Of a stretch of 37,572 nt of DNA, positions 13,913 through 19,935 are shown one piece after another; within the stretch, counting starts at the first letter, position 1; every line of letters starts with the position of its first letter. Where the stretch lies: contig JASHQX010000042.1 of assembly GCA_030038895.1 (NCBI GenBank), positions 1-37,572 of the forward strand, read 5' to 3'. The notes below the pieces were generated by a model. It saw nothing but the letters and a program-made list of their open reading frames with translations. It searched no databases and had not been told where the DNA came from. The translations under genes were made by a program, and so were the position numbers. This DNA is from Thermoplasmata archaeon. Its GTDB lineage: Archaea; Thermoplasmatota; Thermoplasmata; Lutacidiplasmatales; UBA184.

Positions 13913-14524
13913 GTGATCCTCGACCAGTTCCGGATCGGACCGTACCTGAATTTCACCTACGTCGTGGCGAACGAGGACGGCGGCGAAGGGGTCGTGGTCG
14001 ACCCGTCGTTCGGGATCGACCCGGTGCTCGCCCGCATCGACGAGCGGCGGCTCAAGATTCGGTTCATCCTCAACACCCATAGCCACCCTGACCATGTCGC
14101 GGGCAACCAGGACGTGCGGGACCGGACCGGTGCCAAGGTCGTCGCGCACCGGGTTGCCCCGCTGCACCAGGACATCTCGGTAGAGGATGGCGACTCGATC
14201 AAGGCCGGCCGTATCGCATTCGATGTCGCCCACACGCCCGGTCACACGAAAGATAGCGTCCTCTACATTTTCGAGGGCCACGTTGCGACCGGCGACACGC
14301 TGTTCGTCGGAGAGTGCGGACGGACCGACCTTCCCGGCGGCAGTCCCTCCGAGATGTACGATAGCCTCCTGCGTCGCATCATCTCGCTCGACGACGCACT
14401 CGTGGTCCTCCCGGGCCACGACTACGGACCCACCCCGACGTCGACGATCGGGCGGGAAAAAGCGGAGAACTATACGCTTCAGCCTCGCACCCGCGAAGAG
14501 TTCCTGAAGTTCCTCGCCGAGTGA
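13913..14524 (+). CDS. Metallo-beta-lactamase-fold hydrolase, persulfide-dioxygenase/glyoxalase II-like
   Basis: This protein of about 203 residues has the metallo-beta-lactamase fold with all metal ligands: THSHPDH near residue 58, the HTPGHT histidine, the bridging Asp in GDTLFVGECGRTD and the late PGHDYG histidine. The GRTD motif and the tail pattern PGHDYGPTPTSTIGREKAEN resemble ETHE1-type persulfide dioxygenases and their relatives more than classical glyoxalase II. Sulfide or persulfide handling is therefore the best guess, and thioester hydrolysis the alternative. GTG 13913 is preferred because of the TATA at 13884-13891; GTG 13901 is possible. Its stop overlaps a GTG at 14521 in front of the Cgi121 gene, so the two genes are probably co-transcribed even though their functions differ. 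Confidence 0.82.
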   Translation: MILDQFRIGPYLNFTYVVANEDGGEGVVVDPSFGIDPVLARIDERRLKIRFILNTHSHPDHVAGNQDVRDRTGAKVVAHRVAPLHQDISVEDGDSIKAGRIAFDVAHTPGHTKDSVLYIFEGHVATGDTLFVGECGRTDLPGGSPSEMYDSLLRRIISLDDALVVLPGHDYGPTPTSTIGREKAENYTLQPRTREEFLKFLAE

Positions 14525-14535
14525 GGTTCTCCGCG

Positions 14536-15096
14536 ATGCCCCTTCCTCCCCCCGAGGAGCGGCCCCTGCAAGCGATCGGCGCCCGGCGGCAGGCGCCGGG
14601 CCGTCCCGCGATCTCCGAGATCGTCAGTATGTTGCGGGAGCTTAACCGCGAGTCGGAAAGCCTGGTCGCTCTCTTCGACGCCCGGTCGATCGCGGGCGAG
14701 CGACATCTCCTCTCCGCCTGGGCGCATCTCGGACGGGCCCGTGCCCGCGGCGAAGTCCGACTGCGGGACCGTGGGGCCGAGCTCGCGCTCTACGTCGCCG
14801 GAGACGACCAGCTGCCGCGGGCCCTCGCGAAGGTCGGGGCCACGGAGGAGACCGAGCAGTTCGTTCTCGTCGCCGAGCGCCCGCGCGATCCCGCCGAGCT
14901 CCTCTCGCGGTTCGGCCTAGAGAGGGACGCCTCGGCGTACCCGCGGCCGCCGGACGCCGAGACGCTCGATCGGCTCGGAATTGGAACGTCCGAACGGAGA
15001 GCCGTCCCGCAGAGCGCCTGGGAGGGCCTCGTCCTCGAACGAGTGGCGCTGCTTGATCTCACGGTCCCAGCGGGACGGAGCCGGTCGAGGTCGTGA
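14536..15096 (+). CDS. cgi121: KEOPS complex subunit Cgi121
   Basis: Cgi121 is the tRNA-recruiting subunit of KEOPS, which with Kae1, Bud32 and Pcc1 installs t6A at position 37 of ANN-decoding tRNAs. Residues after about 50 fit the family: FDARSIAGERHLLSAWAHLGRA, then RDRGAELALYVAGDDQLPRALAKVG and a FVLVAERP strand before a helical C terminus. The first 40 residues are a Pro/Arg-rich extension not typical of the family. ATG 14536 follows gtgaggt (14521-14527), a fair ribosome-binding site; GTG 14521 and ATG 14629 are alternatives. It lies 12 bases after the metallo-beta-lactamase gene and about 120 bases before two tRNA genes, an apt location for a tRNA-modification factor. Confidence 0.8.
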   Translation: MPLPPPEERPLQAIGARRQAPGRPAISEIVSMLRELNRESESLVALFDARSIAGERHLLSAWAHLGRARARGEVRLRDRGAELALYVAGDDQLPRALAKVGATEETEQFVLVAERPRDPAELLSRFGLERDASAYPRPPDAETLDRLGIGTSERRAVPQSAWEGLVLERVALLDLTVPAGRSRSRS

Positions 15097-15218: not shown

Positions 15219-15319
15219 GCAGGTGTAATCTAGTGGTAGGATGTCAGCCCTCCAAGCTGACTACCCGGGTTCGAATCGGCGGGCCCGGACGGACCCCCGC
15301 GGAGCTCCCGGCACCTGCA
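15219..15319 (+). tRNA. tRNA-Gly (anticodon TCC) interrupted by 30 bases in the T arm
   Basis: The first part, 15219-15276, gives acceptor strand GCAGGTG, a D arm, an anticodon stem TCAGC/GCTGA with loop CCTCCAA (anticodon TCC at 15251-15253), T-stem strand CCGGG (15265-15269) and T-loop TTCGAAT. The matching T-stem strand CCCGG appears only at 15307-15311. It is followed by CACCTGC (15312-15318), which pairs perfectly with the acceptor strand, and discriminator A 15319. Removing 15277-15306 restores a standard 71-base tRNA with every stem fully paired apart from one T-G in the D arm. CCA is not encoded. The parsimonious reading is a functional tRNA with a non-canonical intron; a disrupted pseudogene is the alternative. 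Confidence 0.82.
15277..15306 (+). other. Putative non-canonical tRNA intron (T loop/T stem junction)
   Basis: This 30-base insertion falls around tRNA positions 59-62. Its exact ends can slide by one or two bases because TC occurs on both sides. Inside it GCGGG (15279-15283) can pair with CCCGC (15296-15300), leaving a 12-base loop. I could not draw a textbook bulge-helix-bulge by eye, so splicing by the archaeal tRNA endonuclease would need a relaxed motif. Confidence 0.68.
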
Positions 15320-15357: not shown

Positions 15358-15382
15358 GGACGAGGTCCGCTCGGGGCCATTC

Positions 15383-15466
15383 GCTGAGGTAGCCTAGTCC
15401 GGTAAGGCGCCAGCCTTGAAAGCTGGTGGCGGTCTCGCCTCGGGAGTTCAAATCTCCCCCTCAGCG
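15383..15466 (+). tRNA. tRNA-Ser (anticodon TGA)
   Basis: This 84-base class II tRNA has acceptor strands GCTGAGG and CCTCAGC, anticodon stem CCAGC/GCTGG with loop CTTGAAA (anticodon TGA at 15417-15419), and a long variable arm with its own short stem (GGCG..CGCC). The T arm is GGGAG-TTCAAAT-CTCCC, and the discriminator is G 15466. The long variable arm and G73 are serine identity elements. There is no intron and no encoded CCA. The mutS promoter follows within 25 bases. Confidence 0.95.
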
Positions 15467-15486
15467 TTCCGCGCACCCTTCGGGAC

Positions 15487-15495
15487 GGTTATAAG
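15487..15495 (+). promoter_or_regulatory. TATA box of the mutS-mutL-nuclease operon
   Basis: The element ggttataag centres near 15491, giving transcription near 15517, four bases before ATG 15521. It excludes earlier in-frame starts, which would lie inside tRNA-Ser. Confidence 0.65.
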
Positions 15496-15520
15496 CGGCG
15501 GGTCGGTCGACGGGCCGTCG

Positions 15521-18145
15521 ATGCCGGCCGCTGCCCCCTCCACTCCCATGCTCGAGCAGTACGAAGGGGTGAAGGCGCAGTACCCGGGGCATCTCGTGCT
15601 CTTCCGCGTCGGCGATTTCTTCGAGACGTTCGGTGAGGACGCGCGGCTCCTGTCGAAGGAGCTCGATGTCGTGCTGACCGCCCGGGCACCGGACACTCGC
15701 GGGGAACGCACGCCGATGGCGGGCGTGCCTCATCACGCGGTCGAGACGTACCTTGGCCGCCTCGTGGGGAAGGGGTACAAGGTCGTGCTCTGCGACCAGG
15801 TCGAGGATCCCCGGTTCGCCAAGGGACTCGTCCGCCGGGAGGTGACCCGGGTGGTCACTCCGGGCACGGTGGTCGAGGACCGTATCCTCGGCGGTCCGGA
15901 TCACAGCTTCCTCGCGAGCGTCTCGCTCGAGACCGAAGGTCCCGGTTCGTTCTCCGCGGTGGACGTGACGACCGGCGAGTGGTTCCGCGGGATCGCCGAC
16001 GGGCCGGGGCCGGAAGGCATCGTTTCCGCTCTCGCACCGTTCGCGCCCCGGGAGATCCTCTGGAAAGCTCCAGAGGAGGGGGAGGCTCCCCTGCGTGCAG
16101 CGCTCCGTCGCGAGTTTCCGGCCGCTCGGCTCGAGCCCGCTCCCGCGCCGGTCATCGAGGGCGAAGTGCCGCTGGCCCTGAGGAGCTCCCCGGCCGTTCC
16201 GGGCACGACCCCAGAACCCGACCTGAGGCTCATCGCCTATCTCCGGGTCACCCAACCGCGGCTCCTTCCGCATCTCGAGCTCCGGGAGCGCACCGCCGGT
16301 GGCCGACGTCTTGTCCTCGACGCGAAGACGCTGCGCCATCTCGAGATCCTCCGCCCGATGAACCCCGACGATCCGAAGGGTCCGACCCTCCTCGGCTGCT
16401 GGGACGAGACCGTCACCGCCGCCGGGCGACGGACTCTCTCCTTCTGGCTGTCGAACCCGCTCGCGGATCCCCCGGCGATCTCCGAGCGGCAGGACGCGGT
16501 CGCTGAGCTCGTGGGGCGGGGCGCCGGCGTCGTAGAGCTTCGCGTCGCCCTACGGGGCGTGGCGGACCTCGCGCGCATCGCTTCGCGCGTCGTGAGCCGC
16601 CGGGTGCGTCCGGCCGAGCTCGGCGCGCTTCGGGACGGCCTTGGCGCGGTGGAACGGGCCCGCGCGCTCCTTACCAGTCGTCCCGTCGATGGTCTTCTGC
16701 GACGTCTCTCAGGCGAGCTCACCATCCCCTCCTCCCTCGCCGATCGGCTGCGATCCGCCCTTCCCGACGCCCTTCCGACGAGCGAGGAGTGGAGCGAGCT
16801 GTTCCGCGAGGGGCACTCGCCCGAGATCGACCGGTGGCGGGCGGCCGAACGGACCGCGCTCGCCCGGCTGGCCGAGCTCGAGCGGACGGAGCAGGACGCC
16901 ACTGGGATCCGTACCCTCAAGGTCGGATACAACCAGGTGTTCGGATACTACTTCGAGGTCACGAAGCCGCACCTCGCCCGGGTGCCGGCGCATTTCCGGC
17001 GGCGCCAGACCGTCGCGCAGGCCGAACGGTTCACCTCGGATCGTCTCGAGGAGCTCGAGCGGGAGATCCGGGCAGCGCAGGAGGGGATGCACGACGCGGC
17101 CCTCGCACGGTGGGAGGAGCTCCTCGTCGAGATCGAGCGCGATGCCTCGGGCCTCTACCGAATCGGACGTGCGCTCGGGGAGCTCGATGCCTTGCTCACG
17201 TTTGCCCACCTGGCCCAGTCCCGCGGATACGTCCGTCCGGTCGTTGACGACTCGGACTCGCTCGTCGTGCGGTCGGGTCGGCATCCGGTCCTCGACCGTC
17301 TGATGGGCGAGTCATTCGTCCCGAACGACACGGAGCTCGACGTTCCCGAGCACCGGCTCCTCGTGATCACCGGGCCCAACATGGCCGGGAAGTCGACGTA
17401 CATGCGACAGGTCGGCCTATTGGTCGTGCTCGCGCAGGCCGGCTCCTTCGTTCCGGCCCGTTTCGTTCGCCTCGGAGTCGTCGAGCGCCTGTTCACGCGG
17501 ATGGGATTCACGGACGAGATCGGGCGCGGCAAGTCGAGCTTCATGGTCGAGATGAGCGAGGTCGCGGAGATCCTCCGAGGGGCGGACGAACGGTCGCTCG
17601 TTCTCCTCGATGAGGTCGGCCGGGGCACGAGTACGTTCGACGGCCTCGCGATCGCCTGGGCGACCTTGAAGCATCTCCACGACGTCGCGCGCTCGCGGTG
17701 CATTCTCGCGACTCACTACCACCAGCTGACCGAGCTCGTGCAGGGGCTCGCGGCCGCGCAGAACGCGCACCTCGCGGTTGCCGACCGGCCGGACGGCGTC
17801 GTCTTCCTCCACCGGCTCGTCCCCGGCGCCACCGACCGGAGCTACGGGCTTCATGTCGCACGACTGGCCGGGCTTCCGGAAGACGTGCTCGCCGAGGCGG
17901 ACCGGCTCCTGCGGCGACTCGAGTCCGAAGGAATGCGCCTCGAATCGAAGGGGCGAGCTCGAGCCCGAGGACCTCGCTACACTCAGGCCGTCCTTCTCTC
18001 CTCGGAGGCGGCGGGAACCGATCCGGTACGCGAGGAGCTTCGGAGGATCGACATCGATTCGCTCGCCCCTGAGGAGGCGGCAGCCAAACTTCGAGAGCTG
18101 CGGCGTCGCGCCTCCGGGGGCCCGTCCGGGGAGCCCGAGCGGTGA
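15521..18145 (+). CDS. mutS: DNA mismatch recognition ATPase MutS (bacterial MutS1 type)
   Basis: This 874-residue protein recognises mispaired and looped DNA and signals through ATP to MutL. The mismatch-binding domain I carries RVGDFFETF (residues 29-37) with the Phe-X-Glu that stacks on the mismatch. Connector, core and clamp domains follow (helical region about residues 250-560). The ATPase has Walker A TGPNMAGKSTYMRQ near residue 617 and Walker B LVLLDEVGRGTSTFDG near residue 693, plus the ATHYHQL switch. The C-terminal tail ends in a short helical segment. Length and motifs are those of bacterial MutS1 rather than the shorter archaeal MutS homologues, so ancient acquisition from bacteria is likely. 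ATG 15521 fits a leaderless start. mutL overlaps by four bases. Confidence 0.96.
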   Translation: MPAAAPSTPMLEQYEGVKAQYPGHLVLFRVGDFFETFGEDARLLSKELDVVLTARAPDTRGERTPMAGVPHHAVETYLGRLVGKGYKVVLCDQVEDPRFAKGLVRREVTRVVTPGTVVEDRILGGPDHSFLASVSLETEGPGSFSAVDVTTGEWFRGIADGPGPEGIVSALAPFAPREILWKAPEEGEAPLRAALRREFPAARLEPAPAPVIEGEVPLALRSSPAVPGTTPEPDLRLIAYLRVTQPRLLPHLELRERTAGGRRLVLDAKTLRHLEILRPMNPDDPKGPTLLGCWDETVTAAGRRTLSFWLSNPLADPPAISERQDAVAELVGRGAGVVELRVALRGVADLARIASRVVSRRVRPAELGALRDGLGAVERARALLTSRPVDGLLRRLSGELTIPSSLADRLRSALPDALPTSEEWSELFREGHSPEIDRWRAAERTALARLAELERTEQDATGIRTLKVGYNQVFGYYFEVTKPHLARVPAHFRRRQTVAQAERFTSDRLEELEREIRAAQEGMHDAALARWEELLVEIERDASGLYRIGRALGELDALLTFAHLAQSRGYVRPVVDDSDSLVVRSGRHPVLDRLMGESFVPNDTELDVPEHRLLVITGPNMAGKSTYMRQVGLLVVLAQAGSFVPARFVRLGVVERLFTRMGFTDEIGRGKSSFMVEMSEVAEILRGADERSLVLLDEVGRGTSTFDGLAIAWATLKHLHDVARSRCILATHYHQLTELVQGLAAAQNAHLAVADRPDGVVFLHRLVPGATDRSYGLHVARLAGLPEDVLAEADRLLRRLESEGMRLESKGRARARGPRYTQAVLLSSEAAGTDPVREELRRIDIDSLAPEEAAAKLRELRRRASGGPSGEPER

Positions 18146-19935
18146 CGGCCACGGGGGCGTCGACGGACCGCCGCCCGATCCGACGGCTAGAGCTCGGGAC
18201 GGTCGAGCGGATCGCGGCGGGAGAAGTCGTCGAGCGGCCGGCATCGGTGGTCAAGGAACTCGTCGAGAACTCGCTCGACGCCGGGGCCACGACCGTCACG
18301 GTCCGGATCGAACAAGGGGGAATCGAACGGATCGTCGTCGCCGACGACGGGACCGGCATCCCGCCGGACGAGCTTGAGATCGCCGTGGAACGGCACGCGA
18401 CGAACAAGATCGGCCCGGCGGGCCCCGTCGAGCTCATCGAGACGCTCGGGTTCCGGGGCGAGGCGCTCGCCGCGATCGCCGCGGTGGCGCGGCTGCGGCT
18501 CCTCTCGCGGCCGCCGGACCGGGAAGTCGCGGAGGGAATCTCGGTCGTCGGAGGAGCACCGGCTGGGCGGTTCGCCTCTCCCCGGGCTCCCGGGACGACG
18601 GTCGAGGTCTCCGACCTCTTCTTCAACACGCCGGCCCGGCGCAAGTTCCTGCGGAGCCCGGCTGCCGAGCAGATCGAGGTGGCCCAGACCCTGGAACGCA
18701 CCTACCTCGCGCGTCCCCACGTTACGGTCCGCTTGGAGGCGGAAGGGAGGGAGATCGCGACGTACCCGTCGACGTCGGACCTTCGGGACGCAGCTTCCCG
18801 GGTCCTCGGCCCCGAGTTTCTTCGTGGATCCTTCTCGGTCACGGGCGAGATCCCGGGAGGACGGGTCCACGGGGTCCTCGGTCGGCCTTCGCTCGCCTCC
18901 CCTTCAAGCCGCGGGCTCTACCTCGCGATCAACGGTCGGGCGATCCTCTCCCGTCCGCTCCAGCAGGCGGTGCGTGTCGCGTTCGGGGACTACCTGCCGC
19001 GCACCCGGTTCCCCGTCGGCGTGGTCCACCTCGAGGTGACGGCGGAGGGCCTCGACGTGAACGTCCATCCCACGAAGCGCGAGGTCCGCCTGGCGCGCGA
19101 GCGGGAGATTGTGGACGCCGTCCGCGTGCGCGTGCGGGAGGGGTTGATCGCCGCCCCCCAGGTCGCCGAGCTGGCCGAGCGCACGGTCGGCGTCGACCGT
19201 CTGGCCCCTGAGGAGGGTGCCGCCCACCCCGGAACCCTCCGCGTGAGCGAGGGAGCCGAGGCGGGGGGTGCCATGAGTTCCATCGGAGGTCGACAGCAGA
19301 CGCTCGGAGAGGTCGGCCCTGCCGTCCGGTTCCCCGAGGTCGCGGCTTCGACGGGTCATCCCCGGCTCGTACTGCTCGGATGCGTAGGGGCCCTCTACTG
19401 GGTCGCAGAAGGGGACGACGGTCTCGTCCTGATCGACCAGCACGCCGCGAGTGAGCGCGTGGTCTACGAAACCCTGCGGCGCGAGGAGCCGGTCGCCCGC
19501 CAGGGGCTGGTCGAACCGGTTCCTCTCCACCTGACGGGCGTCGAGCGGTCGGCGCTCGAGGCCCACCGGGTCGAGGTCGCGCGCGCCGGCTTCGAGGTCG
19601 ACGAGTTCGGTCCGGAGACCTACTGCGTACGTTCGGTCCCTTCGTTCGCCGGGCGACGCGCCCGGCCCGGGGCCGTACTGGAGCTACTCGACGAGCTCGC
19701 TTCGGGCGGACGTCCGACTCAACCGGATGGGCTCATCGAGCGGACTGCAGCCAGCCTCGCCTGCCACGCGGCGATTCGGGCGGGTGACGTGGTGACGTCC
19801 GCAGAGTTCCAGCGGGTCCTCGAAGCGCTCTACGCGCTGCCCGAGGCCGCGTACTCCTGCCCGCACGGCCGGCCGATCGTGCTTCGGATCCCGCGATCCC
19901 GGCTCGACCGCTGGTTCCTGCGGAGCGGGCCGTGA
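18142..19935 (+). CDS. mutL: DNA mismatch repair endonuclease MutL
   Basis: This 597-residue protein is the nicking endonuclease of methyl-independent mismatch repair. The GHKL ATPase half shows IAAGEVVERPASVVKELVENS, DDGTGI, GFRGEAL and NVHPTKREVR. A variable linker (about residues 340-400) leads to the C-terminal dimerisation domain with the full metal-binding set. That set comprises DQHAASERVVYE (the DQHA(X)2E(X)4E motif, near residue 432), ACHAAIRAGD, CPHGRP near residue 575 and a terminal FLR. E. coli-type MutL lacks this set, so the present protein should cut DNA itself. The GTG 18142 start overlaps the mutS stop. The linker segment GRQQTLGEV faintly resembles a sliding-clamp-binding peptide. 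The following nuclease gene again overlaps by four bases. Confidence 0.96.
   Translation: MTATGASTDRRPIRRLELGTVERIAAGEVVERPASVVKELVENSLDAGATTVTVRIEQGGIERIVVADDGTGIPPDELEIAVERHATNKIGPAGPVELIETLGFRGEALAAIAAVARLRLLSRPPDREVAEGISVVGGAPAGRFASPRAPGTTVEVSDLFFNTPARRKFLRSPAAEQIEVAQTLERTYLARPHVTVRLEAEGREIATYPSTSDLRDAASRVLGPEFLRGSFSVTGEIPGGRVHGVLGRPSLASPSSRGLYLAINGRAILSRPLQQAVRVAFGDYLPRTRFPVGVVHLEVTAEGLDVNVHPTKREVRLAREREIVDAVRVRVREGLIAAPQVAELAERTVGVDRLAPEEGAAHPGTLRVSEGAEAGGAMSSIGGRQQTLGEVGPAVRFPEVAASTGHPRLVLLGCVGALYWVAEGDDGLVLIDQHAASERVVYETLRREEPVARQGLVEPVPLHLTGVERSALEAHRVEVARAGFEVDEFGPETYCVRSVPSFAGRRARPGAVLELLDELASGGRPTQPDGLIERTAASLACHAAIRAGDVVTSAEFQRVLEALYALPEAAYSCPHGRPIVLRIPRSRLDRWFLRSGP

Follow-up and report, generated by a model that had tools for sequence, protein, structure and literature searches.

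Can a tRNA gene still yield a working tRNA when 30 nucleotides interrupt its T arm? The question is raised by a 37,572-nucleotide stretch of DNA, here called the window, from a Thermoplasmata MAG of the Candidatus Lutacidiplasmatales group, an uncultured soil archaeon. The window's genome (G000) is about 90% complete, and the analysis of it covered the stretches with tRNA, endA and rtcB genes. Positions 15219-15319 read as tRNA-Gly(TCC), with a 30-nt insert that splits the T arm. As a preliminary description of the locus recognized, all stems form once the insert is removed. Specifically, the acceptor stem (15219-15225/15312-15318) has 7/7 pairs, the anticodon arm (15244-15260, anticodon TCC) has 5/5, and the T-stem (15265-15269/15307-15311) has 5/5. 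Excision leaves a complete tRNA cloverleaf, as is expected of an archaeal bulge-helix-bulge (BHB) tRNA intron spliced by EndA. The gene and its neighbor are laid out as follows.

15219..15275, + strand: exon 1 of tRNA-Gly(TCC) (tRNA positions 1-59), with the acceptor, D, anticodon and 5' T-arm parts, read from the sequence.
15276..15305, + strand: intron of 30 nt at position 59/60, TCGGCGGGCCCGGACGGACCCCCGCGGAGC, in the BHB register given by 75 distinct relatives.
15306..15319, + strand: exon 2 of tRNA-Gly(TCC) (positions 60-73), with the discriminator A at its end; it completes the T-stem (5/5) and the acceptor stem (7/7).
15382..15467, + strand: intact tRNA-Ser(TGA), 62 bases downstream of tRNA-Gly(TCC), reported by ARAGORN and matched by Rfam at 65 bits.

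The Gly-Ser tRNA pair adjoins in same-genus genomes and in order relatives, and serves as a synteny marker. Directly downstream of the pair lie a mutS gene, whose product has four Pfam MutS domains, and then an apparent mutL (15494-19935); the MutS-MutL pair is uncommon in archaea. Upstream, an ORF at 14521-15096 weakly matches Cgi121, a subunit of KEOPS (22.9 bits; cut-off 25). The anticodon loop of the tRNA, CCTCCAA (15249-15255), carries C at position 33, where U is nearly universal in tRNAs. C33 is present in 45 of the 75 distinct relatives and U33 in the other 30.

Exactly where the insert begins is ambiguous in a single sequence, for its boundary can slip among three equivalent placements: 15276-15305, 15277-15306, and 15278-15307. 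Comparison of relatives supplies the register. T precedes CCCGG without exception, while the intron's first base differs among copies (T in 34, A in 28, C in 9, and G in 4 of the 75 distinct relatives). Thus, the junction is 59/60 and the intron is 15276-15305, which puts the predicted intron site inside the T-loop and not in the T-stem. The preliminary description had the length right; its placement, 15277-15306, was one base off. That register, 60/61, is also why it could draw no strict BHB. In the 59/60 register, the canonical hBHBh' arrangement appears, with T-stem CCGGG/CCCGG, bulge AA^U, helix UUCG/CGGA, bulge GC^U, and an intron hairpin; that is, two 3-nt bulges flank a 4-bp helix (H). 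The elements of the motif are the following.

15270..15273, + strand: 5' strand of the central helix H, UUCG (T-loop 54-57), 4 bp with 15300-15303 (CGGA).
15300..15303, + strand: 3' strand of H, CGGA.
15274..15276, + strand: 5' bulge AA^U, 3 nt between H and the intron helix, with the 5' splice site after 15275.
15304..15306, + strand: 3' bulge GC^U, 3 nt between H and the T-stem, with the 3' splice site after 15305.
15277..15299, + strand: intron hairpin (helix h), which alone folds at -10.5 kcal/mol.

The predicted spliced exon junction is GGGTTCGAA joined to TCCCGG, and the predicted circular intron junction is ...GAGC joined to TCGG....

One reading of the locus is that a random insertion has turned it into a pseudogene. 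ARAGORN is consistent with this reading, as it reports the neighboring tRNA-Ser(TGA) alone and is silent on tRNA-Gly(TCC), and so is Rfam, whose match to the gene is partial (model positions 8-63, 30.3 bits). The relatives speak against it. A DNA search blind to the intron recovered the same interrupted gene throughout the genus. In the GTDB collection, a pattern built on the upstream exon alone matched 59 contigs, of which one is from Candidatus Lutacidiplasma silvani and the others are labelled Thermoplasmata archaeon. The insert sits at the same site in all 57 contigs that are readable through it, with the remaining two stopping at a contig edge and hence standing outside the count. The other six genera of the family possess the same intron, bringing the set to 75 distinct versions (28-38 nt long) from seven genera, with the intron in every readable copy. 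No intronless tRNA-Gly(TCC) was found among the 57 readable contigs or in those six genera. Three members of the order from other families were also inspected, and two of them, G025 and G027, have an intronless copy, in both cases likewise with C33. The third, G026 (C19:58300-58700), has a tRNA-Gly(TCC) with two introns, one at 37/38 and one of 14 nt in the T arm, the latter with almost no inner helix.

The insert also changes in a compensatory manner. Among the 75 distinct Gly introns, H has its full 4 bp in 64 and 3 bp in 11. Position 57 and its partner covary (G:C in 68, A:G in 7). For pairs 1-7 of the intron helix, 86% of cells are paired, versus 60% (sd 1.6) in 2000 cross-sequence shuffles, whose maximum is 66%. 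The same signal is present in 20 T-arm introns, most of them belonging to other tRNAs, with a covariation score of 0.595 versus 0.199 for shuffled sequences (0/500 shuffles); sliding the partners abolishes it. The BHB structure is, in short, upheld by compensatory change. With the exons intact, and with no other tRNA-Gly(TCC) found in the genome, we consider a randomly disrupted pseudogene highly improbable, and the suggestion in the preliminary description that the gene might be broken is excluded by conservation and covariation over the 75 distinct relatives.

Thermodynamic folding gives a mixed picture. When the T arm is folded locally, MFE structures of the Gly relatives contain the T-stem in 74/75 cases; H is present in 45/75, versus 5/375 for shuffled introns. 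The full-length window precursor has a nearest-neighbor MFE of -47.4 kcal/mol versus -39.9 kcal/mol for the BHB cloverleaf, so that the MFE fold is not the BHB, and H in the window has a low local probability (0.08). The full-length fold is weak counter-evidence because the program misfolds the mature spliced tRNA too. Thus, folding of the T arm alone is informative, and full-length MFE folding is not.

BHB motifs are also common to split tRNAs (PMC3293823), in which case the two halves would be expressed separately and joined in trans, with the 30 nt as leader remnants. Here both halves lie on one strand, a continuous hairpin occupies the gap of only 30 nt, and we regard a split gene as improbable in the extreme. 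The exons are collinear, neither separated nor inverted, and a split or permuted tRNA was rejected.

The intron of tRNA-Gly(TCC) is one of a set. At least 12 tRNAs of the window's genome have T-arm introns, at least 11 of them besides Gly(TCC), at the same site: Gly(TCC), Glu(CTC), Arg(TCT), Arg(TCG), Ser(GGA), Ser(CGA), Ala(GGC), Asp(GTC), Gln(CTG), His(GTG), Lys(TTT), and Asn(GTT), the last with a poor H helix. A near-complete relative, G001, has at least 11. Across these introns, the partner of position 57 is C where 57 is G; where 57 is A, it is usually G and in a few cases U. The A57-G opposition (e.g., loci L077, L079, L178, and L246) is a consistent non-standard pair that adjoins the bulge. 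A covariance model of T-arm introns has 2-15 matches in each of 56/56 genomes of the family (completeness at least 85%) and 1-4 matches in 37/227 genomes from other families of the class. All 29 matches examined from 16 of these other-family genomes fold as T-arm-intron tRNAs (acceptor 7/7, T-stem 5/5), and are often Arg(TCT), Lys(TTT), Leu(TAA), or Met. Two further matches in a phylum sample, outside the class, are candidates. Strict motifs of ~30 nt are favored by the model, and introns that are short or relaxed escape it; G026, for example, scores nothing. Within the class, T-arm introns thus occur sporadically, with a concentration in this Lutacidiplasmatales family.

Several observations accompany this survey. 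Single Arg(TCT) T-arm introns recur in several families of the class (L234, L237, L239, L241-L243, and L250), and the Arg(TCT) intron is suggested to be of older origin than the others. The tRNA-Lys(TTT) of the window's genome (L172, C6:14180-14520), read by eye, has an apparent D-arm intron in addition to its T-arm intron. Other likely D-arm introns occur in a CAT-anticodon tRNA (L068, G000:C40), probably the initiator Met tRNA and labelled Phe by ARAGORN, and in Arg(GCG) (L182, G001:C2). Finally, a second tRNA-Arg(CCT)-like copy (L074, G000:C128:2952-3226) has a mismatched 3' half and is possibly a pseudogene.

What could remove these introns? The preliminary description proposed establishing the type of tRNA endonuclease, and a single splicing endonuclease gene was found in the genome (G000:C100, 354 aa), encoding two PF01974 repeats. 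Most genomes surveyed likewise have one such two-repeat gene; in five incomplete same-genus genomes, no endonuclease gene was found. The best matches of the protein are 5x89, the Archaeoglobus fulgidus alpha-prime enzyme, and the Methanocaldococcus jannaschii alpha enzyme. The Tyr, His, and Lys motifs are kept in the C-terminal half (FKYG, HAR, and VRK). With one gene, two tandem repeats, and Tyr-His-Lys in the second, the enzyme is of the alpha-prime-2 type as judged from its sequence, a putative homodimer. An RtcB gene is present on G000:C105, so the genome encodes both an endonuclease and a ligase, as a BHB intron demands.

In reviews, endonucleases of the (alpha-beta)2 or epsilon-2 type that bear a specificity loop are linked with non-canonical tRNA introns, and alpha4 and alpha2 enzymes are held strict to a BHB at the canonical position, with loops accompanying intron diversity (PMC4090602, PMC6379350, PMC12397907). 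A lineage-specific loop, predicted from this literature, was looked for and is absent. Specifically, at the site of the Crenarchaea-specific loop (before the LSLxE strand), eight enzymes of the family and 14 class relatives all lack an insertion; the A. fulgidus-like enzyme 3p1y does have one there. A broad-specificity endonuclease, bearing a CSL or an ASL, was rejected, since the lysine-bearing loop is missing.

These results bear on a further reading, that the intron is real but relaxed, possessing no strict BHB and requiring a broad-specificity endonuclease. The 3-bp H in 11 of the 75 Gly orthologs, the G that faces A57 in A57 tRNAs, and the poor H of Asn(GTT) are in keeping with it. Nonetheless, the window copy, whose motif the preliminary description thought might be relaxed, forms H over all 4 bp with two bulges of 3 nt, and the endonuclease lacks a specificity loop. 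We therefore judge a relaxed intron unlikely. What stands from that description is its central proposal, a non-canonical tRNA intron in a Thermoplasmatota archaeon.

We conclude that tRNA-Gly(UCC) here is almost certainly a working gene that carries a BHB intron in the T-loop at 59/60, and that its precursor is presumably spliced. The anatomy, the conservation, the covariation, and both enzyme genes are in hand; cutting and ligation would proceed as follows. In the precursor, the exon T-stem would form the outer helix, and the invariant T-loop UUCG would pair with CGGA near the 3' end of the intron, leaving the predicted splice sites in the two 3-nt bulges, AA^U and GC^U. The two-repeat endonuclease, encoded by a single gene, would cut both bulges, and RtcB would presumably ligate the exons, restoring the T-loop UUCGAAU. 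The spliced product would be the sole tRNA found that reads GGA. A second intact tRNA-Gly(TCC), another check that the preliminary description proposed, was not found in the genome, which at about 90% completeness may still contain one; the other glycine tRNAs found have the anticodons GCC and CCC. A Gly-like match on contig C169 was considered as a second copy and rejected, as it is Gly(CCC). GGA makes up 64 of the 453 glycine codons in eight long ORFs of the window, and by the rules of decoding, neither a GCC nor a CCC anticodon reads GGA. Thus, tRNA-Gly(TCC) is presumably needed.

How could such introns multiply with this enzyme? A loop-less endonuclease may manage splicing in this lineage because the BHBs are strict and use the invariant T-loop sequence. 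The notion is that introns multiplied at one T-loop site (59/60) with no change in the splicing enzyme: the invariant UUCRA provides one strand of H in any tRNA, and a matching CGRR or GGRR near the 3' end of the intron would suffice for a loop-less enzyme of narrow specificity. We give this proposal an even chance of being correct. The Ferroplasma alpha-prime enzyme cuts minimal BHB substrates (PMC8707768), which fits loop-less removal of strict T-loop BHBs. How narrow homodimeric enzymes are is debated, because BHL-like cleavage has also been attributed to them (PMC8707768). If the proposal is true, non-canonical introns can spread without evolution of a specificity loop. Genomes throughout one Thermoplasmatota family carry up to about a dozen T-loop introns apiece, and the only enzyme found is loop-less with two repeats; because the two coexist, the idea that loops and introns co-evolve can be tested here. 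There is also a practical consequence. tRNA finders miss genes with T-arm introns: ARAGORN missed Gly(TCC), and 8 of the 12 T-arm-intron tRNAs of the window's genome fall under the Rfam gathering cut-off, one of which, His, was found only by the dedicated covariance model. In the annotation of these MAGs, tRNAs may therefore wrongly be counted as missing.

Position 59/60 is already listed among tRNA intron positions (PMC4090602), and intron-rich tRNAs are known from Thermoproteales, Caldiarchaeum, and some Asgard archaea (PMC8450103, PMC3293823, PMC11291895). Introns go unmentioned in the paper that described Lutacidiplasmatales, and among open papers, older primary surveys aside (Marck and Grosjean 2003; Sugahara 2007; Tocchini-Valentini 2005, 2011), we found none that reports a set of T-arm introns for Thermoplasmatota. 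Thermoproteales likewise have BHB introns outside 37/38, 59/60 included, and many per genome (PMC4090602). Their enzymes, however, are (alpha-beta)2, and crenarchaeal enzymes bear the Crenarchaea-specific loop (PMC4090602, PMC6379350), whereas the Lutacidiplasmatales family has a loop-less alpha-prime enzyme, and most of the non-canonical introns found in it are at 59/60 and strict or near-strict. Caldiarchaeum subterraneum also has tRNA introns in the D, V, and T arms (PMC3293823), but it represents another archaeal lineage, with introns at several positions. The Asgard archaea Atabeyarchaeia and Freyarchaeia show that many non-canonical tRNA introns can occur outside Crenarchaeota (PMC11291895); in that separate lineage, 92-95% of tRNA genes are affected and over half have multiple introns. 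A further parallel is the epsilon-2 endonuclease of ARMAN-2, a homodimer encoded by a single gene in a lineage with non-canonical introns. The ARMAN enzyme has three units and an ARMAN-specific loop (PMC12397907), while in that of the window's genome the PF01974 repeat occurs twice and the loop site has no insertion. Thus, T-arm BHB introns are of a known kind, and the point of interest is a lineage-wide set of them alongside a loop-less enzyme.
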